64,000 nucleotides of DNA from Pelomonas sp. Root405 (GTDB lineage: Bacteria > Pseudomonadota > Gammaproteobacteria > Burkholderiales > Burkholderiaceae_C): contig NZ_LMDU01000016.1 of NCBI RefSeq assembly GCF_001425165.1, positions 234,931-298,930 on the forward strand, read 5' to 3'. The notes under the pieces are model-generated. The model did no database searches. It saw only the letters and a program-made list of their open reading frames with translations, and was not told where the DNA came from. Shown here in pieces: positions 40,592 through 53,183 of this stretch (the first letter of the stretch is position 1; every line of letters begins with the position of its first letter). Position numbers and translations under genes: made by a program.

Positions 40592-41860
40592 TCAGCCAGC
40601 GAGGCGGAACGCCGCCGCCATCCACTCCTGCTCCCGGGCACGAAGCTTCAGGCTGGCAGCGATCTTGGGCCACTGCTTCACCACGGCCTGGCTGCGCGCG
40701 ACGATCTCGTCGGCCAGCTTCCGAGGGACTCGGAAGTACGGCGCCACCGAACGCGCGAGGTCGAGGTCCATCGCGTTGTCGACCTCGCTGACATTGAGCT
40801 TCAGGCCTTGCGACCCGGGCACCGGATTCATGTCGTAGACATCGGACAGGCGCCAGCCCTTGCCCGGCACGAGGATGAATCCGTGGTTGCGCAGGTGATC
40901 GTCGGTGTTGGAGACCAGCATGTTGAAGACGATGCGCGACCACAGCTCACGCAGGTCTGCGGCGGTGTTCGCACCGTGGTCGATCAGCACGCGGGCGATC
41001 TCCAGATAGCTCGCGCCTGTCGACGCATCGTCGCCGTCCAGGTGGCCGGTCAGCGTCATCGCCGAGGCGAAATGAAGCCTGCCAGCGGGCGTGCGGTCGA
41101 AGCGCTTGACCAGGAAGCTGTGCTGCCGGCTCGCGAACTTGCGGGCCAGGCTTTGCGGCACGGCCAGGCCGCAGCCCTTCGCGAGGGTCTGCACCACCAG
41201 CTCCCAGGCGCCCACATCGTGCTCGTCGCGCACGCTGGGGAACTTGGCAATCCACAACTGCCCCTGCGGATCAACGACGCTGGCCTTGGGCCGCGCGCCG
41301 CCGAGCGAGCCGCCGGGAGCGATCAGCAGGCGCAGCCAGTCGTCGCCCGCCGCCGCAGTGTTGTCCTCATCGCGCTCCAGCGCCAGGCTGGCCGCTTCCA
41401 GTTCGCGCAGCTGAACAAAGGGCGGTGCGGCCGTGCCGTGCTGGTTGTCCAAAAAGTCGCCCGCGTCATCGAGGCGCAAGCGCAGCGCCCCGGAACGGTA
41501 GGCGTCGTGCACGCCCAGCAGGTAGTCCGATTCGTGCAGCCGAACGGCCTTGCCCACCTGCCCTGCCCGCTGCGCCCGTTCCAGCCGGCGGCGCATCAGC
41601 AACCGGCCCCACCGGTCCGGGCTCGCATCGGCGAACACACCGAAGGTCTCGTGGCCCTGCGGCGGGTGCTGCCGGCCGCCGAAGAGGCTCAATCGCGGGT
41701 CCAGATGCAAGTTCCCGGTGGCGGGATGGGCCAGCGCCGCAGCATCGAACTCAAACTCAAAAACTTCCCGACCCGCGCCGCGCCTGGCGTGCAACCACCC
41801 CAGCCGCAGCGGCTCCGCGAGGCCCACCCAGTCCGCGTAGACGGCAACGGCTGCGGCCAT
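40592..41860 (-). CDS. hipA: HipA-family toxin kinase
   Basis: A 422-residue serine/threonine kinase of the HipA family, which phosphorylates a target such as glutamyl-tRNA synthetase in E. coli. The Gly-rich loop GGSLGGARPKAS and WIAKFPS (Lys) bind ATP, HSFLVKRFDR follows, the catalytic block is NTDDHLRNHGFIL, and YDMNPVP holds the metal Asp. All key residues are present, so it looks active. Its start lies 4 bp after the hipB stop on the same strand. Confidence 0.9.
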   Translation of the reverse strand: MAAAVAVYADWVGLAEPLRLGWLHARRGAGREVFEFEFDAAALAHPATGNLHLDPRLSLFGGRQHPPQGHETFGVFADASPDRWGRLLMRRRLERAQRAGQVGKAVRLHESDYLLGVHDAYRSGALRLRLDDAGDFLDNQHGTAAPPFVQLRELEAASLALERDEDNTAAAGDDWLRLLIAPGGSLGGARPKASVVDPQGQLWIAKFPSVRDEHDVGAWELVVQTLAKGCGLAVPQSLARKFASRQHSFLVKRFDRTPAGRLHFASAMTLTGHLDGDDASTGASYLEIARVLIDHGANTAADLRELWSRIVFNMLVSNTDDHLRNHGFILVPGKGWRLSDVYDMNPVPGSQGLKLNVSEVDNAMDLDLARSVAPYFRVPRKLADEIVARSQAVVKQWPKIAASLKLRAREQEWMAAAFRLAG

Positions 41861-41864
41861 GGCT

Positions 41865-42338
41865 TCAACGCCCCTTCTTCTTCAGCGCTGCCGACGGCTC
41901 GATCAAGCCAGCCAGTGCATCGGCGCTGGCGAAGCCGCTCTGCTTGATCCAGTCCCGCGCGTCCTCGGCAGGCTTGAGCGGCTTCTTGATCGCGTTGTTG
42001 GGCGCAACCAGCCGCTGCACTGACAGCCCGGGGCGTGGTGTCTTGCTGGGCGCTGGCAACTGCGCATCCTGAAGCTCGCGACCGACCGGGTCGGCCTTGC
42101 CGAGCAGGTCGAGGTCCTTCTCGATGCCCAGCACCTGCATGACGGCAAGGTAAGCACCCATGGTCACCCCCGACCCGCCGCGCTCCAGGCTGCGCAGTGT
42201 CATGGGCGCCATCCCGGCGCGCTCGGCCACCTGCTTGGCCGAGAGCCGCCGACGCAGCCGCGCCAGGCGCAGGCGGCCGCCGAACTGCCTCAACACTTCA
42301 TCGGTGGCGGGGAGCAAAGGGGCGGTCTTTTTTGCCAT
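41865..42338 (-). CDS. hipB: HipB-type antitoxin, HTH protein
   Basis: A 157-residue protein, longer than E. coli HipB (88). The HTH (about residues 26-60) is RRRLSAKQVAERAGMAPMTLRSLERGG, of the HTH_3/Xre type. A C-terminal part (about 95-157; VQRLVAPNNAIKKPLKP, ASADALAGLIEPSAALKKKGR) is Lys/Ala-rich. The ATG at 42338 is preferred to a TTG upstream. It precedes hipA by 4 bp, so the two form a classical toxin-antitoxin operon. Confidence 0.87.
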   Translation of the reverse strand: MAKKTAPLLPATDEVLRQFGGRLRLARLRRRLSAKQVAERAGMAPMTLRSLERGGSGVTMGAYLAVMQVLGIEKDLDLLGKADPVGRELQDAQLPAPSKTPRPGLSVQRLVAPNNAIKKPLKPAEDARDWIKQSGFASADALAGLIEPSAALKKKGR

Positions 42339-42487
42339 GGCAGCCAATATTCTAGGTTTTTAACGGACCAAATAGCCACAATATTTACACTACTGGCCAG
42401 CCACCAACGCTTGCGGCTGCTGCTGCCGGCATCGGGTCAACCCGTCACGCAACGCGGCCGCAACGCCCCGCCGGCAGACTCGCCGGC
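42339..42487. other. AT-rich divergent control region of hipBA and regulator block
   Basis: The part next to hipB (42340-42400) is much richer in A+T than the rest of the window, with AATATT at 42346 and 42379 and runs such as GTTTTTAAC; it should hold the hipB promoter, with no clear HipB-type operator seen. The right half has a hairpin CGGGT-CA-ACCCG (42433-42444) and the tandem direct repeat described separately. Confidence 0.5.
42449..42480 (+). promoter_or_regulatory. SARP-like tandem-repeat operator and -10 before regulator 1 unit
   Basis: Direct heptamers GCAACGC at 42449-42455 and 42460-42466, exactly 11 bp start to start, then 8 bp and a -10-like CAGACT (42475-42480). The implied transcription start is about 42487, one base before the ATG of the small gene, so that gene would be leaderless. 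The same layout recurs at 46146 and at 50188 (minus). Its use by the downstream BTAD regulator is inference. Confidence 0.6.
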
Positions 42488-42700
42488 ATGACCATGGACG
42501 ACAACGCCGCCCACCTGCGGACCCACGCGCCGCCGCGCCGTTGCCTGCTGACCTGGTGGTCGGCGGCGCCGGGCGAGTTCAGTGCGCGGGTGGTGCTGGA
42601 GGACGGCCGGCTGCTCGACTTCGACAGCCCGTTCGAGCTGGCGCGCTTCCTCGGCATCCCTATGTCGAACGCGCCGGCCACGTCGACCGGCCTGCGCTGA
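42488..42700 (+). CDS. Small conserved-looking protein preceding BTAD regulator
   Basis: A 70-residue protein: CLLTWWSAAPGEFSARVVLEDGRLLDFDSPFELARFLGI looks like a small beta-beta-beta-alpha domain, the kind found as a short gene beside large AAA/BTAD regulators. No ribosome site; predicted to start at the transcription start. It ends 16 bp before the regulator gene and so is probably co-transcribed. Not recognised as a named family. Confidence 0.5.
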   Translation: MTMDDNAAHLRTHAPPRRCLLTWWSAAPGEFSARVVLEDGRLLDFDSPFELARFLGIPMSNAPATSTGLR

Positions 42701-42716
42701 CTCGCACAATCCGCGC

Positions 42717-45700
42717 ATGCAAGAACCGTCGGGTGCCGTGCTGGAGCTGCGGGTGTTGGGGCCCGTGCGCCTGTCGCGCAGCGGCGCGCCTGTCGCGTTG
42801 ACCAACCGCAAGACGCAAGCGCTGCTGCTGGTGCTGGCGCTGGACGGCGGTGCCAGCCGGCCGCATTTGTGCACGCTGCTGTGGCCGGACCTGGATGAGC
42901 CCAGCGCGCGCCGCAACCTGCGCCGCGAGCTGGCGCGGCTGCGCGAGGCGGGCGTGCCCGAGGCCTTCCGCGTCGACGACGACTATCTGCACCCCGGCGA
43001 CACGCTGAGCTGCGACCTGCTACGCGCCGAAGCCAAGCCTGAACTGGCGCTCGCGCCCTGGCGGGGCGAGCTGGCGGACGGCCTGCAGCTGGACGACGCG
43101 CCGCTGTTCGCCCCCTGGCTGAGCGCGGCCCGCGAACGCGCGCTGCGGCTGCGCTTCAGCGCGCTGGAAGCCGCCGCCGCCGCAGCCGAGGCGCGCGCCG
43201 ACCTGGCCACCGCGCTCGCCCATGTGCACGCCCTGCTCGACGAAGACGGCCTGCAGGAGCGCCACCACCGCCAGGCCATGCGGCTGCTGGCCGCCACCGG
43301 CCAGCGCGAGGCGGCGCTGCGCCAGTTCGAGCGCTGCCGGGCCGTGCTGGCGGCCGAGCTGGGACTGCAACCCATGCCCGAGACCGTGGCGCTCGCGCAG
43401 TCGCTGCGCGGCACGGCAGCGCCGGCCGCCGTTGCATTGGCACTCCCGCAGAGAGCTTGGCCGGAGCGCCTGCCCTTCGTCGGCCGCGCCGCCGAGGTGG
43501 CGCGGTTGCAGGGCGCGTGGCTGCGGCGCACGGCGGTCGTCATCGTCGGCGAGGCCGGGGTGGGCAAGACGCGCCTCGCGACCGACTTCGCCGCCTCGCA
43601 GGGTGCCTACGCGCTGGTGCGCTGCCGCAGCGGCGACCGCGACATCGCCTTCGGCGCATGCGCCCGCGTGCTGCGCGTGCTGGCCGGTGACCCGCCGGAC
43701 CTGCGCGGGCTGGACGACTGGATCGTGACCGAGGTCGCGCGGCTGCTGCCCGAGCTGGGCCCGGCGCCTGCGCCGCTGCGCACGCAGGCCGAGCAGCTGC
43801 GCTTCGACGAGGCCTGCATCCAGGCTTGGCTGGCGCTGTCGCGCGGTGCCTTCGACGCCCTCGTGCTGGACGACTGGCAGCTGGCCGACCCCGCCAGCCG
43901 CACGCTGCTGGCCCGGGTCGCGGCGCGCCGCCGCGAGGCGGGCGCCGAGGGCGCCGTCGAGCTGGTGTGCTGGCGCGGCGCGGCCGATGACGCCGAGCTG
44001 CCGGGCTTCAGCGCGGTCCTTGCCGCCGAGACCATCGCGCTCGGCCCACTGCCGGCGGAAGCGGTCTACGAGCTAATGCGCCAGCTGTCGGGTGCGGCCG
44101 ACCCGGCGCGTTTTGCCGAGCGCCTGTGCAGCGCCACCGGCGGCCATCCGTACTTCATCTCCGAAACACTGCGCGACCTGGCCGAGACCGCGGTGCTCGA
44201 TGTCGACGAGCACGGCCGCTGGCGCACGCCCTTCGACGCCGTGACGCAGGACTACCGCGAGCTGCCGATGCCCGCCAGCGTGCGAGACGCCGTGCTGGCG
44301 CGCGTGCGGCGCCTGGACGCGCCGACGGCCCGCCTGCTCGAAGCCGCGGCGCTGGCCGGCGAGCCTTTTGGCGCGGCCTGGCTGGCATCGGCCTGCGCGC
44401 TGTCGGAGCTGGAAGTGGTGCAGGCGCTGGAACAGGCCGCGCAGGCCCAGCTCGTGCGCGCCCACGCGGCCGGCGGTTATGCCTGGACGCATGACCTGGC
44501 CCGACAGGCGCTGGATTCGGCGCTGGAGCCGGTGCGGCGCCGGCTGGTGCATCACCGGCTGGCGCTGGGTGCCGAAGCGCTGGGCGCCAGCGCCGAGGCC
44601 GCGCGCCACTTCGAGGCCTGTGGCGAGCCGCGCCGCGCCGTCGCCCACCGGCTGGCCGCCGGCGACGCCGCCCGAGCGCTGGCCGCGCTGGGCGAAGCGG
44701 CGCGTCACTGGCAGCTCGGCCTGGGCGACGACCCGACCCCGCCGCAAGCCGCCTCGCTGCTGGCGCGGCTGCTGGAGGCGGAGCACGGCCTCGGCCGCCA
44801 CGCCGAGGCAGAGGCCTGCCGGCAGCGCCTGGAGGACCTGCGCGCCGGCACCGCGCTGCCGCCGGAGGTCGAGGTCGAGGCGGGCCATGCGCTGGCGCGC
44901 TACCTCGTGCGCGGCAAGAGCGCACAGGCGGCGCTGGCCGTGCTCGACACCTTGCCGCCGCCGACCGATGACAGCCAGCGCCTGCGCCGGCTGTCGCTGC
45001 GCATGGACGCGCTGCAGCAGCACGGCCGCATCGACGAGGCGCGCGCACTGGGCGAAGAGGCGTTGGCGCTCATCCACCCGGCCCACCCGGAACGCGCGGA
45101 GATGCTGGCCTCGCTGGCAATGTTGGAGTTCTCAGCCGCACGCTTCGATGCCGCCGTCGAGCGGGCCAACCTGTTCGTCACCGCGAGCCGGCAGCGTGGC
45201 GACGGCATGCTCATCGCCCGCAGCCTGCAGCTGCGCGGTGCCTTCGAGGCCGAGCGCGGCAACCTGGACATCGCCGAGGCCGATCTGCGCGAAGCCGCGG
45301 CGCTGGCCGGTCGCTTCGGCAACCGGCCGACGCAGCTGTTCGCGCTCTACAACCTGGCCGTCACCTTTCTGCAGCAGACGCGTGCCGGCGACGCGCTGCC
45401 GGTCATCGATGAAGGCTGGGCGCTGTGTGCCGAACAGCCGGGCAGCGAAGCGCGGACGATGTTCCGTGCGCTGTTCGTCGACGCCTATTTCATGGTGGGC
45501 GACTGGGACCGCGCCTGGGAGCACATCGAGCCGGCCATCGCGGAGGTCATCGCCATCGGCCAGCCGATGTCCATCGCCGGCATCGCGATGGCGGTGCTGG
45601 AGCCGATGGCCATGCTGGGCCAGTGGCCGCGCGCGGCACCGCTGCTGGCGGCGCTGAATCATGACGCGCTGGCGCAGTCGCCGCAAGCCGGCCACCCGGT

Positions 45701-46139
45701 CTGGCTGGCCTGCGCCGTGGCGGCGGTGCTGCGCGGTGATGTGGACGAAGCGCGCGGCTGGCTGCAGCGCCTGGGCCCGCCCGACGCGATCGCGAACCCG
45801 CGCGTGCGGCTGCGGCTGGCGCTGGTCGATGCCCAGCACCGCTGTCAGGAAGGGGACCTGGCTGGCGCGCTCGCGTTGCTCGCCCCGGACGATGCGCCCG
45901 GGCTGAATGACGAACTTCGGCTGCGCATGCTGGCGGTGCGCTGCCGAGCCGCTGGCGACCCGGCGGCGGTGGCCCTCGCGGGGGCCGCGCTGCTTGATCC
46001 GCGCACGCATGCGAGTGCGGCCATCGAGCTGGCGAGCGCCCTCGGCGGCACGGCGCTCGCCGCGTGGACCGAACGCCTGGGCGCGACACTGGCCGACTGG
46101 CCCGCCGTCCGCGCGAGCTTCGTCGCCACCTGGCGCTGA
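42717..46139 (+). CDS. SARP/BTAD-type transcriptional regulator with AAA and TPR regions (regulator 1)
   Basis: A 1140-residue AfsR-like regulator. Residues 9-80 form an OmpR-like winged helix (TNRKTQALLLVLAL, LCTLLWPDLDEPSARRNLRREL), 95-230 the bacterial transcriptional activation domain (DEDGLQERHHRQAMRLLAATGQREAALRQFERC), 255-500 an ATPase with Walker A GEAGVGKT (278-285) and Walker B LVLDDWQ, and the rest helical TPR-type repeats. Such proteins sense an unknown signal and activate nearby genes. Start ATG at 42717, following the small gene; the PEP-CTERM gene lies downstream. Confidence 0.87.
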   Translation: MQEPSGAVLELRVLGPVRLSRSGAPVALTNRKTQALLLVLALDGGASRPHLCTLLWPDLDEPSARRNLRRELARLREAGVPEAFRVDDDYLHPGDTLSCDLLRAEAKPELALAPWRGELADGLQLDDAPLFAPWLSAARERALRLRFSALEAAAAAAEARADLATALAHVHALLDEDGLQERHHRQAMRLLAATGQREAALRQFERCRAVLAAELGLQPMPETVALAQSLRGTAAPAAVALALPQRAWPERLPFVGRAAEVARLQGAWLRRTAVVIVGEAGVGKTRLATDFAASQGAYALVRCRSGDRDIAFGACARVLRVLAGDPPDLRGLDDWIVTEVARLLPELGPAPAPLRTQAEQLRFDEACIQAWLALSRGAFDALVLDDWQLADPASRTLLARVAARRREAGAEGAVELVCWRGAADDAELPGFSAVLAAETIALGPLPAEAVYELMRQLSGAADPARFAERLCSATGGHPYFISETLRDLAETAVLDVDEHGRWRTPFDAVTQDYRELPMPASVRDAVLARVRRLDAPTARLLEAAALAGEPFGAAWLASACALSELEVVQALEQAAQAQLVRAHAAGGYAWTHDLARQALDSALEPVRRRLVHHRLALGAEALGASAEAARHFEACGEPRRAVAHRLAAGDAARALAALGEAARHWQLGLGDDPTPPQAASLLARLLEAEHGLGRHAEAEACRQRLEDLRAGTALPPEVEVEAGHALARYLVRGKSAQAALAVLDTLPPPTDDSQRLRRLSLRMDALQQHGRIDEARALGEEALALIHPAHPERAEMLASLAMLEFSAARFDAAVERANLFVTASRQRGDGMLIARSLQLRGAFEAERGNLDIAEADLREAAALAGRFGNRPTQLFALYNLAVTFLQQTRAGDALPVIDEGWALCAEQPGSEARTMFRALFVDAYFMVGDWDRAWEHIEPAIAEVIAIGQPMSIAGIAMAVLEPMAMLGQWPRAAPLLAALNHDALAQSPQAGHPVWLACAVAAVLRGDVDEARGWLQRLGPPDAIANPRVRLRLALVDAQHRCQEGDLAGALALLAPDDAPGLNDELRLRMLAVRCRAAGDPAAVALAGAALLDPRTHASAAIELASALGGTALAAWTERLGATLADWPAVRASFVATWR

Positions 46140-46145
46140 GCCGCC

Positions 46146-46177
46146 GCAACGGCGCGGCAACGGCCCCGCTCTACCGT
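46146..46177 (+). promoter_or_regulatory. SARP-like tandem-repeat promoter of the PEP-CTERM gene
   Basis: Direct heptamers GCAACGG at 46146-46152 and 46157-46163 (11 bp apart), 8 bp, then TACCGT at 46172-46177 as a -10. It starts 7 bp after the regulator 1 stop codon. The implied start about 46184 leaves a 26-nt leader with GGAG before the ATG at 46210. SARP proteins in actinobacteria bind such repeats with the same spacing to the -10. Confidence 0.6.
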
Positions 46178-46209
46178 GGCAACTCCCCCACAACAGCGCG
46201 GAGCACGCC

Positions 46210-47154
46210 ATGAAACTGATCGCCTCCCTGACCGCCGGCCTGCTGGCTGCAAGCCTCGCCCACGCCGGCTCGAGCGTCGGCAGCGTGAGCAAGCCAGGCG
46301 GCTTCGCCAGCGCCTGTGCCAGCGACCTCAGCGCGGGCGTGGGCTACACGCCGGGGCTGGACATCACCGCGGCCTTCAGCGGCTGGACCGGACACTTCAG
46401 CTGCCAAAGCCAGGACTTCACCGGCGCCGCCGGTCAGGCCGCCGCCACCGCGCAGTGGAACGCGCCCAATGCGACCAACCAGGCGTCCATCCAGGCCCGC
46501 ATGGGGCAAATCCACCTGGCTTCGAGCAACACGGCCCGCATCAACGTTCAGTTCCCGGTCGCCGCAGCCGGCGGCGGCTGGTCGGAAACGATGACGGTCA
46601 ACGTGCCCGGCCACGAGGGCGAGGCGGCGACATGGCTGTTCACGGTCGACGCCACCGGCCTGCTCTCGGCCGGCGGCGGCAGTGCCCAGGTGATGGCGAA
46701 TGTTTACAAGGGCAACGACGAGGTGAGCCTCTACACGCCCGGCTTCAACCCCGGCGGCTCGGACCCGCTGGGTACCGACCGCCAGCGCGTCGTCTGGGGC
46801 GTGTCGCGCAGCGGCAACCGCAGCATCGACGACACCGTCACCTTCGCCGTGCCCGTCACGCTGGGCCAGTCCTTCGTCTGGGGCGTCTACGCCACCACCC
46901 AGGCTGGCATTGCGGCCTGGACACCCAGCCTGGACACCATGGTCTCGTCCAACGCCGACTTCCTGCACACGCTGAGCTACGGCGGCTCCGCGGGCGTGCT
47001 GATCGGCGGCGTGGCGTATCACAACGAACAGATCGTGGCCGCCAGCGGCATTGACTGGACCGTGGCCGCCGTGCCTGAGCCCGGCACGTGGGCGCTGTTG
47101 CTGCTGGGCCTGGCGCTGGTGGGCCGCCTGGCCCGGCGGCACAGCGGGCGCTGA
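46210..47154 (+). CDS. PEP-CTERM sorting-signal secreted protein
   Basis: A 314-residue exported protein with signal peptide (MKLIASLTAGLLAASLAHAG) and a C-terminal PEP-CTERM tail: VPEPGTWALLLLGLALVG followed by RLARRHSGR. The mature part is Ser/Gly/Thr-rich and low in charge. In known systems exosortase cleaves the tail at the cell surface, often tied to exopolysaccharide; the exosortase is not in this window. GGAG precedes the ATG. Function of the body is not recognised. Confidence 0.87.
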   Translation: MKLIASLTAGLLAASLAHAGSSVGSVSKPGGFASACASDLSAGVGYTPGLDITAAFSGWTGHFSCQSQDFTGAAGQAAATAQWNAPNATNQASIQARMGQIHLASSNTARINVQFPVAAAGGGWSETMTVNVPGHEGEAATWLFTVDATGLLSAGGGSAQVMANVYKGNDEVSLYTPGFNPGGSDPLGTDRQRVVWGVSRSGNRSIDDTVTFAVPVTLGQSFVWGVYATTQAGIAAWTPSLDTMVSSNADFLHTLSYGGSAGVLIGGVAYHNEQIVAASGIDWTVAAVPEPGTWALLLLGLALVGRLARRHSGR

Positions 47155-47164
47155 ACCGCCTCGG

Positions 47165-48355
47165 TCAGGGTTGCAGCAGGCGCTGCGCCGCCAACGCGCC
47201 GATGCGTCGGCCCATGGCCTCGGCCGCGTTCGTGGCCGAACGGAAGTGGATGCCGCCGTGGATGCGTGAGTCCGATACCTCGCGAACGAAGTCGTCGGTG
47301 CGCTGCCAGCGGCGCGTCGCGCCCTTGGCCGTCGGGCTGCTCGTGGACAGCTCCGGCACTGCGCCACCCTTGGCATCGGCGTCGATCAACGTGGCCACCG
47401 AGGCAGCCAGGATGCTGTGGCCGCTGGGGTACTCGGGGTGCATCGGGGAGTCGATCAGCGACGTCCACGCCGGGTCGCGCGTGGTGGCATCGTTGCTGTC
47501 GATGTCGCCGTTGCGGATGGCCGTGACCGGGCGCCAGAACTGGTAGTGGTACTTGGCCTCGATGACGGCGATCAAGGCGTCGTCCATCGCCTGCGCGACC
47601 GCCGCGAACAGCCGGGCGTTCCGCGCCAGGTCGCGCTGCGGCTGCTTCGCCACCGATTGCACCACGCCGTGGTAGATCGCCGGCAGCGAGTAGTCCCAGA
47701 AGCGCGCGGCGTCGGTCTGCTCGGCCGTGCGGCGGCTGGCCGCCTTGGCGCCCAGTGTGCGCACCTCGTCGAAGTCGCGCGCCCACTCGGCACTGTTCAG
47801 CGCCGGCGGCGGGGCCGGGCGGAACTGCGCCGCGCTGCTCAGCAGCCAGGGCTTGCGCTGCGCCCATTGCGACACGGCGACCGGCGCCGTCGGCACGTAG
47901 GCGCCCGGGCTGGTCTTGGGCCGGTAGGCCTCGGGCGTGGCGGCGCCGTCGTCAAGGCGCGCGGCCAGCACGCCCTGGGCGGCGGCCTCGCCGGTGGCGA
48001 TGCCCTGGGTCCTGGCGGCGCCATCGGCGACGCCATTCAGCGCAGCCTGGTAGGCGGCGTCGATGGCCGGCTGTTGCGCTGGCATCAGCCTGGTCAGCGA
48101 GACCCGGTGCGCGGCGGCCAGCGCGGCCTCGGGCGAGGCGTTGGCCTTCTGTGCGGCGTCGACGGCCTGCAGCGCAGCGGTCTGCACGATGGCCATCACG
48201 CGCACGGCGGGCGGCGTGCCCATCTTGGCCTCGGTGATCAGTTCGCCGGACTTGGTGTTCCAGTCGGTGACGGCATCGGCACGCACCTGGGGCGTGGCGA
48301 AGGCAGCGGCGATCGACAGGATGCCGATGACGAGGGGGGTACGGTTCATCTTCAT
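47165..48355 (-). CDS. Vanadium-dependent haloperoxidase-like / PAP2 family secreted protein
   Basis: A 396-residue exported protein with a signal peptide (KMNRTPLVIGILSIAAAFATPQVRA). The PAP2/VHPO core is in the second half: FWRPVTAIRNGDIDSND (Lys/Arg site), SPMHPEYPSGHSILAASV and later SRIHGGIHFRSA with catalytic His, matching the three phosphate/vanadate-binding blocks. Start ATG 48355; an ATG two codons later is possible. It lies 2 bp after the lipoprotein gene, so the two are an operon. Haloperoxidase activity versus acid phosphatase cannot be told from sequence. Confidence 0.85.
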   Translation of the reverse strand: MKMNRTPLVIGILSIAAAFATPQVRADAVTDWNTKSGELITEAKMGTPPAVRVMAIVQTAALQAVDAAQKANASPEAALAAAHRVSLTRLMPAQQPAIDAAYQAALNGVADGAARTQGIATGEAAAQGVLAARLDDGAATPEAYRPKTSPGAYVPTAPVAVSQWAQRKPWLLSSAAQFRPAPPPALNSAEWARDFDEVRTLGAKAASRRTAEQTDAARFWDYSLPAIYHGVVQSVAKQPQRDLARNARLFAAVAQAMDDALIAVIEAKYHYQFWRPVTAIRNGDIDSNDATTRDPAWTSLIDSPMHPEYPSGHSILAASVATLIDADAKGGAVPELSTSSPTAKGATRRWQRTDDFVREVSDSRIHGGIHFRSATNAAEAMGRRIGALAAQRLLQP

Positions 48356-48357
48356 GG

Positions 48358-48852
48358 TCAGCTCTTGTAGAAGTGGTAGTCGGCGCGGTAGGGCACGCGC
48401 AGCGGGTGGCCTTGCGGCTGGCAGGCGCCGGTGGGCGCGCTGCCGCCGGCGGTGTTGACGCGCTGGATGTGGGTGACGCCCACCAGCAGGCCGTGTGTCA
48501 CGGGGCTGTCTGGGGCCGGGCGGGCTGCCAGCAGCAGCCACGGAATCGCGCCGGCCGCGGGCGCATCGGCGCGGGCGGTGACGCTGGCGACGATGCGGCT
48601 GCCGTCGGCGGCCTGCCAGAACGGGCCGGCGCCGTGCGTGCCCATGGCGCGGCCGGCGCTGTCGAACAGCTCGGCCTGGGGCGCGACGAAGGCCCACTGG
48701 CCGGCACGGCATTCATAGATCTGCACGCCACGCGCACTGGCGGTCAGCGCCAGCGTGGCGCCCGGGCCGGGGTGCAGCGCGTCGGGCATGGCGCTGCAGG
48801 CAGCCAGCGCGGGGGCCAGGCTTGCCGCGGCGAGTAAGGTTCTCAGGTTCAT
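48358..48852 (-). CDS. DUF3455-family lipoprotein
   Basis: A 164-residue protein with lipobox LAPALAACS (Cys19). ARGVQIYECRAGQWAFVAPQAELFD and THIQRVNTAGGSAPTGACQP are typical of DUF3455. Function unknown. It precedes the haloperoxidase-like gene by 2 bp; the combination DUF3455 plus VHPO suggests a joint periplasmic or envelope role, which is inference. Confidence 0.83.
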   Translation of the reverse strand: MNLRTLLAAASLAPALAACSAMPDALHPGPGATLALTASARGVQIYECRAGQWAFVAPQAELFDSAGRAMGTHGAGPFWQAADGSRIVASVTARADAPAAGAIPWLLLAARPAPDSPVTHGLLVGVTHIQRVNTAGGSAPTGACQPQGHPLRVPYRADYHFYKS

Positions 48853-48918
48853 GTTGTTCTATCCCTAGGAAATGGAGGGAGTGGCACCGTGGATCGCACG
48901 GCCCACGCCCACGCGCGA

Positions 48919-49755
48919 TCAGCGCTTGGTAATGACAGCTTCGAGGTAGTGGCTGGGCACGATCAGCGACGAAGCGCCGGCCGTGTTCATCGAGTCGATC
49001 AGCGCGGTCAGGTCACGCTCCAGCGCGCGCTGGCCAGCGGCGTCGAGCGCGGCGAAGGCCTTGTGCGTCGGGCCGTAGTAGTCGCGAAAGACCTGCACGA
49101 AATGCGCTGGCGACGCATAGCGGAAGTTGAAGACGCGCCGCTGGCAGTGGATCTGCGTCGCCTGCGCACCGAACAGCACCTGCAGGTGCTCCTCGCTGCC
49201 CCACAGCGACGGCGGCTTGACGCCGGCGGGCGGCGCCACGTGGGCACCGATCACCTTGAACAGGCGGCCGATGAAGCTGTCCGGCGTCCAGCTGGCCAGG
49301 CCGATGCGGCCGCCCGGGCGCGTCACGCGCAGCATCTCGCTGGCCGTGCGCTCATGGTCGGGGGCGAACATCGAGCCGAAGGTCGACAGCGTGATGTCGA
49401 AGCTGCCATCGGCAAACGGCAGCGCTTCCACGTCGGCGACCTGGAACTCGACCGCAAGGCCCTCGGCCTCGGCACGGGCACGGCCCTTGTCGAGCAGCGA
49501 GGGGGCGTAGTCGGTGGAGATGACCTGGGCGAGTCGGCGGGCGGCGGCCAGCGTGGCGTTGCCGTTGCCGGCAGCCACGTCCAGCACATGTTCGCCGGCA
49601 CGCACGTCGACCGCTTCGGCGAGGTTCTCGCCGACGATCTGCAGCGTGGTGCCGACGACGGCGTAGTCGCCGCTGGACCAGGCGGCCTGCTGGCGCTGCT
49701 TGATGGCGGTGTAGTCGGGGGTCTGGGGTTTGATGGGGTCGGTGACGGTGTTCAT
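48919..49755 (-). CDS. Class I SAM-dependent methyltransferase
   Basis: A 278-residue UbiE/COQ5-like methyltransferase. SAM-binding motif I is VLDVAAGNGNATLAAARR (about residues 57-74), then VADVEALPFADGSFDITLSTFGSMF and EMLRVTRPGGRIGLASW. No membrane segment. Substrate unknown. It lies between the DUF1127 gene and the DUF3455 gene on the same strand, possibly one transcription unit from the repeat-bearing promoter at 50.17 kb. Confidence 0.88.
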   Translation of the reverse strand: MNTVTDPIKPQTPDYTAIKQRQQAAWSSGDYAVVGTTLQIVGENLAEAVDVRAGEHVLDVAAGNGNATLAAARRLAQVISTDYAPSLLDKGRARAEAEGLAVEFQVADVEALPFADGSFDITLSTFGSMFAPDHERTASEMLRVTRPGGRIGLASWTPDSFIGRLFKVIGAHVAPPAGVKPPSLWGSEEHLQVLFGAQATQIHCQRRVFNFRYASPAHFVQVFRDYYGPTHKAFAALDAAGQRALERDLTALIDSMNTAGASSLIVPSHYLEAVITKR

Positions 49756-49852
49756 GAGGATCTCGATGGAGGTGGTTTTCTGAAAGAAGCGCAGCCAACG
49801 GCCGCACGGAAATGGCCTGCCGAAGCAGGGGGCTGGTGAAGGGGGCGGCGCG

Positions 49853-50128
49853 TCAGCGCGGCAGCAGCGCGCCGAACAGGCTGGGGCGGCGGTCGCGGGC
49901 AGCCAGACCGTGAAGCTCTGCGGCGGCCGACAGCAGCTCGCTGCGGCTCAAGCCGAGGTCGCGCAGCACGCGGTCATCAAGCTGGCTCAGCACGCGGGCG
50001 GTCGCCTGGGCCTGGTGGGCGCGCAGGCGGCGGTGCAAAAGGCGGCCCAGGCCGAGTGCCGCGCCTTGTAAGGCCCGGTGCGCCTGGGTGATCAGGCCGG
50101 GCCTGAGGGGGATGGTGGTGATGTGCAT
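49853..50128 (-). CDS. DUF1127-family small protein
   Basis: A 91-residue, Arg-rich protein. The C-terminal part AQATARVLSQLDDRVLRDLGLSRSEL is the DUF1127 (YjiS-like) motif of short helix-rich proteins. In other bacteria members bind RNA and affect metabolism. The ATG at 50128 is chosen; an upstream reading reaches into the promoter. First gene after the tandem-repeat promoter. Confidence 0.8.
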   Translation of the reverse strand: MHITTIPLRPGLITQAHRALQGAALGLGRLLHRRLRAHQAQATARVLSQLDDRVLRDLGLSRSELLSAAAELHGLAARDRRPSLFGALLPR

Positions 50129-50155
50129 CGTTCGTCTGTCCCTGTGAGGAAACGA

Positions 50156-50188
50156 ACTGTGCAAAAGGGGGCGTTCCGCGAGCGTTCC
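50156..50188 (-). promoter_or_regulatory. SARP-like tandem-repeat promoter of the DUF1127 gene
   Basis: On the minus strand, GGAACGC at 50188-50182 and 50177-50171, 11 bp start to start, then CCCCTTTTG and a -10-like CACAGT (50161-50156). Implied start about 50149, 21 nt before the DUF1127 ATG with AGGGA. It lies right after the stop codon of regulator 2. The heptamer GGAACGC differs from GCAACGS of the other two sites at position 2. Confidence 0.55.
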
Positions 50189-50207
50189 ACGCCCGGCGGG
50201 CGCCGGA

Positions 50208-53183
50208 TCAGTGCGACGTATCCAGCAGCGAGATCAAGGCCGCATGCTGCAGCGGCGCTTCGGTGGCGATGCGCTGCAGCAGCTCGGGCAAGGCCATGCC
50301 GGGCCAGGGCGCGGCGTCAGATGGCAGGCCGCCCCAATGGGCCAGCTTGCCGAGCATCTCGTCGCGGTCGGACTGCGTCAGCTCCGGCAGCTCGCCAAAG
50401 AAGGCCAGGCAGCGGCGGGCCAGCAGGGCGTGGCCCTGCGCGTCCAGCAGCTCGGCGAAGGCCATCAAGCCCGGCGCGAGCAAAGATGGCGCGCCGAGGC
50501 TGACCGCCGCCGACAGGCCCTCGGCCAGCGCCGTGCGCGCCTCGGCAAAAGCGCCTTCGCGCACCGCCAGGCGCGCCTGGTACGAACGGGTCCAGGCTCC
50601 GATGCTGCGGTTGCCGCTGGCCAGGGCGCTCTCGCTGCTGCGCTGCGCATGCTGGCGCGCGGCGGGCAGGTCACCGAGGTACATCGCCGTCTGCGACAGG
50701 TTGGCGTGCGCCAGGGCCGCCGTGTTGACGAGGCCGTCGCGCTCGCAAAGCGCCAGCGCCTCGCGCAGCGGCGCCTGCGCTGCGGCCGGCTCGCCGCGCG
50801 TGATGTAGAGCGAGCCGAGGTTGTTCAGGCACAGCGCGATGCCGGCGACATGGCCGATGCGGCGGTGCTGTTCCAGCGATTCGAGCGACAGGCGCAGCGC
50901 CTCGTCGTAGTGGCCGAGCCGCTTGTGCACCAGCGAGAGGTTGTCCAGCGTGCCGGCGATCTGCGGCGGCCGGCCCTCCGAACGCACGCGCGCGAGCAAC
51001 TGCTCGTAGCGCCGCTGCGCTTCATCCAGCCGACCAAAGCGCAACGCGCAGGCGGCCAGCACGGTCAAGGCCTGGATGCGCGCCACGCTTTCGGGCTCCT
51101 CGCGGTCGATGCGCTCCAGCGCATGCGCGGCCAGGCCCTCGGCTTCTGCATAACGGTCCAGCCGATAGCACAGGTGCGACAGGCGGCTTTCGAGCAGCAC
51201 GTGCAGCGCGGCGTCGCCCTGCACGCGCGGCGCGTCGACGGCTTCGCGCATCCAGCGCAGGCCGTCCTCGATCAGGCCGCGGTGGTCGAAATAGGCCAGC
51301 AGCGCAGCGGCGCAGCCCGGCATCGCCTCGGTCGGACCGGCTTCGAGCGCCCACTGCCAGGCCAGGCGGAGGTTCTCCAGGTCGGCGTCGATGGCCCGCA
51401 GGCTGGCGCGCTCGCCGGCCTCGACCGCCGCCTGGCATTGGACCAGGCGATGCTGGAAGTAGGCGGCGTGCGCGGCCCGCGCCGCCTGGTAGCCGGCTTC
51501 GCTGAGCTTGTGCGCCGCCAGTTGCTGAACGAGCGGGTGCAGGGCCAAGCGCGGGCCGTCCTTGCGCAGCAGTGACTTGTCGGCCAGCGCGCTCAGCACC
51601 GGCAACGCCGCTTCGGCCACAGCGCGCGCGGCCTCGACCTGGAAGCCGCCGCGGAACACCGACAGCCGCGCCAGCGTGTCGCGCTCGGCCGGCACCAGCC
51701 GCTGCCACGAATGCTCGAACACCAGCTCCATGCTGGCGTGGCGCGGCGGGTGGGTCGCGCCATCGGCGCGCAGCAGGTCGGTGCCGGCGCGCAACTCGGC
51801 CGCGATCTCGGCGCACGGCAGCAGGCGTGTCCAGGCAGCGGCCAGCTCGAGCGCCAATGGCATGCCGTCGAGCTGGCGGCAGATGTCGACGATGGCTCCG
51901 GCCTCGGCTGCGGGCACCAGCGAAGGTTGGACCTGGTGCGCCGCGGCGACGAACAGGCGCGCCGCGTCAAAGGCCTCCAGCCGGTCGGCGTCCTCCAGCT
52001 CCGGGCATGGCAGGCCTTCGAGGGGGTAGAGCTGCTCGCCGGCCAGGCCCAGCCGCACACGCGAGGTGACCAGCAGCTTGATGCGCGGGCAGCCAGTCAG
52101 CAGGGCGTCGAGCGGCGGCGCCACGTCCACCAGCTGCTCGAAGTTGTCCAGCACCAGCAGCGTGCGGCGATCACGCAGCGCGGCGCTCAGCTGCTCCAGC
52201 GGCGGCGCGCGACCCTGCAGCACCAGCCCGAGCTCGCGCGCGATCCGCGTGGCCACGTCCTGCAGAGTCAACAAATCTTCCAGCGGCACGAAGGCCACAT
52301 CATTGCCATGTGCCGGCGCCAGGTCGTGCAGCACGCAGCGCGCCAGCTTGGTCTTGCCCATGCCGCCCGGGCCGGTGAGGCTGACCAGGCGCACGTCGTC
52401 GCGCGCCAGCAGCTCGGCAATGCGCCGCCGCTCGCCGGCGCGGCCGATGAAGCCGGCCAGGCCCAGTGCCGGCAGCGGTGACACCGTGGCGGTGCTGGCT
52501 GTGCCCAGCTCGTCGTGCAGGGCCTGCAGCTGCGCGCCCGGCGCCAGCCCGAGTTCATCGGCCATGCGTGCGGTGAACTCGCGATAGGCTTGGCGCGCCC
52601 GCGCCGCCTGACCGCTGCGCGCCAGCGCCTGCATCAGCGCGCGCAGGGCCGCCTCGTCCAGCGGATCGGCGTCGAGCAGGCGTGACGCCAGCGCGACGCC
52701 TTCCGCCGCGTCGCTCGCTTCACCGGCCAGGTGGTCCAGCGCGGCGGCCCGCCAGGCGGCGCGCAGGCGATCGCGCTCGAAATGCAGCCAGGCCGTCCAC
52801 GCCTCGTTGGCATCGTCGTCGAAGCCCTGCAGCCATTCGCCACGGCGCAGCGCGAGCGCCTCAGCATGCCGGCCGGCCTGCACCGCCACATCGAAGGCAG
52901 CAACGTCCGTGTCAGCATCCAGCCGCACTGTTCCCGGCAGCACCTCCAGCGCGGCGCCCCAGGGGCGTTCCTGCAAGCGGAACAGCGCCTTGCGCAGGTT
53001 GGTCAGCGCGAGCTTGGTCTCATGGTCGGGCCAGAGCAGCGCCGCCAGCTCGTGCCGCGCCACCCAGCCGCGCCGGTGCGCGAGCAGTACCAGCAACTGG
53101 CTGCCACGCTCGCGCGGCAACGCAGTGGCAACGCCATCCAACACCACGGACGGCGCGCCGAACAACAGGATGCGGGTGCTCAT
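50208..53183 (-). CDS. SARP/BTAD-type transcriptional regulator with AAA and TPR regions (regulator 2)
   Basis: A 991-residue regulator. Residues 5-72 form the winged helix (LPRERGSQLLVLLAHRRGWVARHELAALLWPD), 95-225 the BTAD (LLDADPLDEAALRALMQALARSGQAARARQAYREF), 245-450 an NB-ARC-like ATPase with Walker A GPGGMGKT (271-278) and LLVLDNFEQL, then winged segments and TPR-like repeats. Same architecture as regulator 1, but the two proteins differ widely in sequence. The start ATG 53183 avoids a 17-codon upstream reading. The DUF1127 gene follows. Confidence 0.87.
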   Translation of the reverse strand: MSTRILLFGAPSVVLDGVATALPRERGSQLLVLLAHRRGWVARHELAALLWPDHETKLALTNLRKALFRLQERPWGAALEVLPGTVRLDADTDVAAFDVAVQAGRHAEALALRRGEWLQGFDDDANEAWTAWLHFERDRLRAAWRAAALDHLAGEASDAAEGVALASRLLDADPLDEAALRALMQALARSGQAARARQAYREFTARMADELGLAPGAQLQALHDELGTASTATVSPLPALGLAGFIGRAGERRRIAELLARDDVRLVSLTGPGGMGKTKLARCVLHDLAPAHGNDVAFVPLEDLLTLQDVATRIARELGLVLQGRAPPLEQLSAALRDRRTLLVLDNFEQLVDVAPPLDALLTGCPRIKLLVTSRVRLGLAGEQLYPLEGLPCPELEDADRLEAFDAARLFVAAAHQVQPSLVPAAEAGAIVDICRQLDGMPLALELAAAWTRLLPCAEIAAELRAGTDLLRADGATHPPRHASMELVFEHSWQRLVPAERDTLARLSVFRGGFQVEAARAVAEAALPVLSALADKSLLRKDGPRLALHPLVQQLAAHKLSEAGYQAARAAHAAYFQHRLVQCQAAVEAGERASLRAIDADLENLRLAWQWALEAGPTEAMPGCAAALLAYFDHRGLIEDGLRWMREAVDAPRVQGDAALHVLLESRLSHLCYRLDRYAEAEGLAAHALERIDREEPESVARIQALTVLAACALRFGRLDEAQRRYEQLLARVRSEGRPPQIAGTLDNLSLVHKRLGHYDEALRLSLESLEQHRRIGHVAGIALCLNNLGSLYITRGEPAAAQAPLREALALCERDGLVNTAALAHANLSQTAMYLGDLPAARQHAQRSSESALASGNRSIGAWTRSYQARLAVREGAFAEARTALAEGLSAAVSLGAPSLLAPGLMAFAELLDAQGHALLARRCLAFFGELPELTQSDRDEMLGKLAHWGGLPSDAAPWPGMALPELLQRIATEAPLQHAALISLLDTSH

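Follow-up and report, generated by a model that had tools for sequence, protein, structure and literature searches.

The 64,000-nt stretch of contig NZ_LMDU01000016.1 of Pelomonas sp. Root405 analysed here (the window; genome size 5.81 Mb) contains a block with two genes for predicted large SARP-type regulators, designated reg1 and reg2, together with promoter-like tandem repeats of a heptamer that are the subject of this report. A gene for a 70 amino acid (aa) protein lies 5' of reg1, and the gene for a PEP-CTERM protein and a minus-strand operon lie between the two regulators. The end of each regulator gene directly precedes a repeat, operator 2 in the case of reg1 and operator 3 in the case of reg2. 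The features are:

42449-42466 (+): candidate operator 1, GCAACGC-N4-GCAACGC, then N8 and a -10-like CAGACT at 42475-42480
42488-42700 (+): small protein of 70 aa, first gene of the predicted reg1 operon
42717-46139 (+): regulator 1 (reg1), 1140 aa, winged helix-BTAD-AAA_16-TPR, large-SARP architecture
46146-46163 (+): candidate operator 2, GCAACGG-N4-GCAACGG, then N8 and a -10-like TACCGT at 46172-46177
46210-47154 (+): PEP-CTERM protein, predicted reg1 target
47165-48355 (-): vanadium chloroperoxidase/PAP2-like protein, predicted reg2 operon
48358-48852 (-): DUF3455 protein, predicted reg2 operon
48919-49755 (-): S-adenosylmethionine-dependent methyltransferase (UbiE-like domain), predicted reg2 operon
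49853-50128 (-): DUF1127 protein, first gene of the predicted reg2 operon
50188-50171 (-): candidate operator 3, GGAACGC-N4-GGAACGC, then N9 and a -10-like CACAGT at 50161-50156
53183-50208 (-): regulator 2 (reg2), winged helix-BTAD-NB-ARC-TPR, large-SARP architecture; the ATG at 53183 is the assumed start
53117-53134 (+): fourth exact match to the repeat, within the reg2 coding sequence (opposite strand), judged to be chance and not an operator

An earlier note on this DNA had described the first three repeats, and their coordinates and strands, along with the spacers and -10-like hexamers (CAGACT, TACCGT and CACAGT, at 8-9 bp), are present in the sequence just as reported; the match at 53117-53134 had not been listed. 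The exact pattern GSAACGS-N4-GSAACGS occurs four times in the genome, always within positions 42449-53134 of the window (a 10.7-kb block), and three of the four matches are promoter-like. The fourth, in coding sequence, lacks a -10-like hexamer at both of these distances (8 and 9 bp) and is missing from the locus of a 79%-identical reg2 orthologue (L089), so it was rejected as an operator and taken as chance. Control patterns with N5 and N3 gave four matches, on four different contigs, and none, respectively. The genome-wide count by itself is therefore ordinary, but the clustering is not: the probability that the other three matches fall within one block length of the first is about 5e-8 (a post hoc calculation), and the random genome-wide occurrence that the note had said would speak against its proposal was not found. 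When one mismatch is allowed, the window holds five matches against 1.33 +/- 1.23 in 100 shuffled versions, two of which reach five. A reversed-pattern control also gave four genome matches, but a shift of one base makes it fit three of the genuine matches, and because of this overlap with the GCAACG motif the control was set aside in favor of the N3 and N5 patterns; the reversed control in the 41-region gap count described below is non-independent for the same reason.

The four-base gap is strongly preferred around homologues of the two regulators. In 41 homologue regions (561,512 bp), pairs of GSAACGN number 32 at gap 4 and 0-6 at each other gap from 0 to 15. Pairs of NNAACGS followed by a -10-like hexamer number 26 at gap 4 against at most one at other gaps in the 18 close regions, and 13 against at most two in the 23 more distant ones. 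In 40 regions fetched later, the core with a -10 was seen 12 times at gap 4 and 0-2 times at other gaps. The distance to the putative -10 element was examined at 50 sites located without using the hexamer, with a background for NANNNT of 0.02 per position. All 17 of the 17 GG-type sites (where the second half-site may be GG or GC) have this motif at offset 9; it lies at offset 8 in 13/18 GC-type sites, 6/7 CA-type sites and 4/8 other sites. The five GC-type sites without it at this offset are L073 3645, L076 7803, L080, L084 (with a hexamer at offset 9 instead) and the window site at 53117, and one of the GC-type matches, L076 7814, coincides in part with another repeat and may be fortuitous. 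The -10 distance of 8-9 bp proposed in the earlier note is thus fixed, although not uniform, being 8 bp in the reg1 class and 9 bp in the reg2 class. Heptameric direct repeats spaced at 11 bp, as in SARP operators, are present in both classes, and the SARP distance of 8 bp from the 3' repeat to the predicted -10 is seen in the reg1 class, while the reg2 class is one off.

Both regulators contain a BTAD domain (PF03704, 67.8 and 60.2 bits), and the only other BTAD match in the genome is a weak one on contig C1. Their C-terminal parts consist of AAA_16 and TPR_12 (reg1) or NB-ARC and TPR_12 (reg2), the nucleoside triphosphatase (NTPase) plus TPR arrangement that distinguishes large SARPs. Full-length searches of the PDB returned nothing for reg1 and TPR matches only for reg2, and since these were uninformative a family profile was required. 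The profile, built from 24 homologous N-terminal modules, matched best to AfsR (8hvr, E 2.2e-15, positions 3-231 of 250) and EmbR (2fez, E 7.7e-15, positions 5-241). An AlphaFold2 model of the reg1 module has a pLDDT of 92.4, and a Foldseek search with it gave six matches below 0.001, every one of them AfsR or EmbR. By profile, and for reg1 also by model, both proteins are assigned to the SARP family, with an OmpR-like winged helix followed by BTAD; a receiver domain (Response_reg, at E 0.001) is absent from both. The DNA-contact residues of AfsR were taken from PMC10936776 and mapped via the profile alignment of the 24 homologues. The positions of W74 and R87 are invariant (24/24), that of R92 is mostly basic (R18, K4, F1, Q1), and that of T88 varies (R9, K9, H4, Y1, Q1), with R in reg1 and K in reg2. 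The E76 position is acidic in 20/24, which would be compatible with a contact to sigma region 4.

Among 20 genomes of the genus (including that of Root405), one other, G007, carries reg1 (87% identical), and both reg1 boxes are kept. The long alignable stretch between the window and G007 consists of the reg1 block alone. At operator 1 the heptamers are identical at 14/14 positions, against 14/40 for the 40 bp upstream (ungapped), 4/8 for the 8-bp spacer and 4/6 for the -10 hexamer; at operator 2, there is no difference in the heptamers, N4 or -10. Sites of the operator 3 type adjoin reg2 orthologues in L089-L096 and L098-L100, so that the conservation in relatives called for in the earlier note is seen for both kinds of repeat.

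A sample of 399 genomes drawn from the family includes 40 with reg1-type and 48 with reg2-type homologues. Of the 399, 12 contain the reg2 operator together with its -10 (18 sites; reversed control, 0), and these are precisely the 12 genomes with a close full-length reg2 orthologue (E <1e-229; next match 1.6e-155), with no occurrence in the other 387. Four of the 18 sites lie away from reg2. The reg1 operator is found in nine genomes (18 sites): all six with a close reg1 orthologue (15 sites) and three of the other 393 (one site each), compared with three of 399 for the reversed control; no SARP module was detected within the fetched 3 kb in the three extra genomes (L160, L165 and L166). The two operators segregate, each with its own regulator. 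Three genomes with close reg1 and no close reg2 (G007, G080 and G268) have reg1 operators and lack the reg2 operator, and nine with close reg2 and no close reg1 show the converse. Because such genomes carry just the matching operator, the single compact regulon of the earlier note (regulator, small protein, PEP-CTERM protein and DUF1127-methyltransferase genes) was rejected and its members are better divided between two. The SARP-like architecture that it proposed for these AfsR-like BTAD proteins is retained, on the evidence from the relatives, the 399 genomes and the module fold.

The reg1-type pairs tend to end in the same base, with C/C or G/G at 14 of the 15 sites in the six reg1 genomes (L156, L157, L161-L164 and L167-L175). 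Both kinds are present in five of the six, and they may represent two promoter strengths.

Distant homologues show the same layout with other bases at the first two positions of the heptamer: CA in L103, L104, L105 and L107; GT in L083 (AT in one half-site), with GTGACGC/GTAACGC in L078, L079 and L081; and CT/CC in L106. At least one site is present in 29/42 first-round regions (window included). A one-residue code for the dinucleotide (R-GC, K-GG, H-CA, Q-GT, T-GA) was fixed before 40 new regions were fetched, of which nine had a pattern site (12 sites) and none had R or T at the position. The prediction for H held at its one locus (L248, both sites). Two of 27 Q loci have a site, with T as the second base in both (L224, AT/GT; L242, CT/CT) and G as the first base in one of the four half-sites only. 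Four of ten K loci have a site, and all four failed the K-GG prediction (L244, L245, L251 and L252), adding a GA type instead; L244 also carries a poorer CG/AA match. Two loci fell outside the prediction (L250, N: CA; L253, V: GA, plus a GC/GA site), and GTCACGC/GTAACGC was found afterwards, unpredicted, at the Q loci L241 and L257. The code therefore held in part only: the dinucleotide tracks the regulator subfamily, and residue 70 alone does not determine it.

Other 11-bp repeats are not enriched in the 27 Q-type loci (eight at 11 bp; 1-18 at other spacings). A different element, GCGAGAG-N4-GCGAGAA-N9-CACTCT, flanks the Q-type regulators in L226 and L263 and is possibly a further operator class, but its conservation says little, as the flanking bases are identical too. 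CA-type operators also form divergent pairs whose starts are separated by 37-50 bp (L107 9922-9989; L248 393-447), which suggests joint control of two opposite genes.

The reg2 operator was also searched in a collection of 84,980 species, giving 32 matches in 29 stretches, of which 23 (26 matches) are from Burkholderiales or Betaproteobacteria. The remaining six, from other phyla, contain neither a SARP module nor the operon families and were for this reason judged to be chance. A reg2 homologue is present in 14/29 stretches (tblastn; a weak TPR match in L148 was not counted), and the operon families alone in three more. In the other six betaproteobacterial stretches the site precedes genes for a DUF1127 protein (L128), a PEP-CTERM protein (L131), an adenylate cyclase-AAA-TPR protein (L148), a LuxR-type response regulator (L153), or proteins without a Pfam match above the cut-off (L129 and L154), so the operator precedes different genes in different genomes. 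An open reading frame (ORF) of at least 60 aa starts 12-95 nt downstream of 25 of the 26 betaproteobacterial matches, a mechanical count that is weak evidence. The unlinked sites in L148 and L153, both 5' of signalling genes, come from one Aquabacterium genome, hinting at a regulatory cascade. Several reg2 operons have, after the first small gene, a gene for a protein of about 320 aa that appears similar by eye (L136 2823-3797; L146 3870-4838); the L136 protein has no Pfam or NCBIfam match.

Given the conserved repeat architecture, its near-exclusive co-occurrence with the cognate regulator, the fixed spacing to a -10-like hexamer and the fold match to AfsR and EmbR, we consider it very probable that two adjacent large SARP-type regulators, each with its own regulon, use the repeats as their operators. 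The reg1 protein would bind GCAACGS-N4-GCAACGS 5' of the PEP-CTERM gene and of the operon to which reg1 itself belongs, and the position of operator 1 implies autoregulation. The reg2 protein would bind GGAACGC-N4-GGAACGC 5' of the DUF1127-methyltransferase-DUF3455-haloperoxidase operon, just downstream of its own gene. Two SARP modules (winged helix plus BTAD) would sit side by side, with one half-site per helical turn. In the manner of AfsR at afsS, they would stand in for the -35 element and bring sigma70 RNA polymerase to a poor -10. ATP and a further signal would act through the NTPase and TPR domains, which would gate this activation.

Several observations weigh against this interpretation or limit its reach. 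The Fisher p-values for co-occurrence (3.5e-23 for reg2 and 1.6e-11 for reg1) ignore shared ancestry, and the cut-off for a close orthologue was chosen after the gap in E-values was seen. G349 has, at the end of a contig, a reg2 fragment of 60% identity but no operator, which makes the count 12/13 if included. The 9-bp spacing of the reg2 class differs from the published 8 bp. Behind operator 2 of G007 lies a 346-aa ORF with no Pfam match that is weakly similar to the PEP-CTERM protein of the window (31% over 110 aa, E 4e-6 in a single comparison). A site with core and -10 is lacking in 13/42 first-round regions (L074-L076, L080, L082, L085-L088, L097, L101, L102 and L108), including L097, 49% identical to reg2, and L108, which has a near-match, as well as in 31/40 of the later-fetched regions (9/40 have one). 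Most of the more distant regulators thus have no recognised site nearby. In 20 class-wide regions the signal is weak (3 versus a mean of 0.3), the core without a -10 gives no clear signal (4, against a mean of 2 and a maximum of 5 at other gaps), and a generic 11-bp repeat with TANNNT is suggestive only (5, against a maximum of 3).

Direct repeats about 11 bp apart are also used by PhoB/OmpR-type regulators and are not exclusive to SARPs, so the boxes could be sites of another winged-helix protein, such as a response regulator of that type, with the BTAD genes as bystanders. PhoP is noted to bind over the AfsR site (PMC10972967). We regard this as unlikely, since a bystander does not account for a full reg2 operator in 12/12 genomes with close reg2 and 0/387 without, for the retention of both boxes in G007, where the reg1 block alone is shared as a long alignment, or for half-site bases that vary with the regulator subfamily. 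An origin of the repeats by chance or base composition, or their retention through DNA homology alone, could be entertained for a GC-rich genome in which the N5 pattern also has four matches, but is very improbable in view of their confinement to one block (the N5 matches being on four contigs), the gap-4 preference with its fixed -10 offset, and operator 1 heptamers that stay identical beside an upstream flank matching at 14/40; the same box also precedes different genes, with 4/18 reg2-operator sites away from reg2. Equally improbable is a promoter for an extracytoplasmic-function (ECF) sigma factor, for although GGAAC is the classic ECF -35 core, it ends 11 bp (second copy) or 22 bp (first) from the -10-like hexamer rather than the usual 16-17 bp or so, on which ground it was rejected, and the element is double at every site examined and replaced by CAAAC, GTAAC or GAAAC in homologues.

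The closest known counterpart to the proposed SARP-type operators is the afs box of the afsS promoter of Streptomyces coelicolor, two 11-bp direct repeats bound by the large SARP AfsR, which has NOD and TPR domains (PMC10936776). Shared features include a suboptimal -10 (CACTGT in afsS, CACAGT at operator 3; PMC10936776), a 3' repeat about 8 bp from it, and a SARP module similar in sequence and fold. The systems differ in the half-site, which is CGTT(T/C)ATCGNN for AfsR (PMC10972967) and NNAACGS here, in the T88 position (R in reg1, K in reg2), in the reg2 spacing, and in the host, a proteobacterium in which no antibiotic genes were recognised in the block. SARP-LAL regulators such as PimR likewise have heptamers with 4-nt spacers and a fused NTPase part, but the PimR heptamer is CGGCAAG, and its main operator has three copies and no -35 overlap (PMC5930380). 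NNAACGS matches neither of these Streptomyces half-sites. EmbR of Mycobacterium tuberculosis (PDB 2fez) shares the winged helix and BTAD fold but has an FHA domain instead of NTPase-TPR (PMC10936776). In the literature consulted, the SARP operators described concern Streptomyces antibiotic control, and open-literature searches, with most subscription papers outside their scope, turned up no account of SARP operators in proteobacteria. A promoter design and regulators of this kind are already known, and the search result suggests that what is apparently new is the betaproteobacterial use, together with the half-site family and a set of targets among which no antibiotic genes are recognised. Activators of the HilA type combine a winged helix with a TPR-like part in a proteobacterium. 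HilA itself belongs to the OmpR/ToxR family (PMC7232297).

The 70-aa protein has no Pfam match, but has a 70% identical copy in L010 and a partial 45% match (42 aa) in L069. Its ATG lies 6-7 nt past the -10 in both the window (42475-42494; 7 bp) and L010 (3412-3427), from which it is predicted that the mRNA of the reg1 operon may be leaderless. No recognised biosynthetic-cluster enzyme was found among ten window proteins scanned, the products of which are uncharacterised. Upstream, a minus-strand gene for an HTH_31/HTH_3 protein (41868-42347) adjoins a 422-aa ORF (40592-41860), in an arrangement like that of a HipB/HipA-type pair.

A broader proposal, which we hold to be evenly balanced between right and wrong, is that the large SARP-type regulators of Burkholderiales form a widespread, non-antibiotic signalling class, each controlling a private small regulon through an insulated NNAACGS-N4-NNAACGS-N8/9-YANNNT promoter. 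The first two bases would be read around the AfsR T88 position (R-GC, Q-xT, H-CA, and K-GG or GA by context), giving paralogues in the same cell their own promoters. If the two-regulon interpretation is correct, the SARP promoter design would also run small private gene sets in betaproteobacteria, and targets would become predictable for many BTAD-NTPase-TPR regulators of uncharacterised function. The sigma-adaptation mechanism could then be tested on a proteobacterial polymerase, and the natural set of half-sites would offer insulated promoter-activator pairs.

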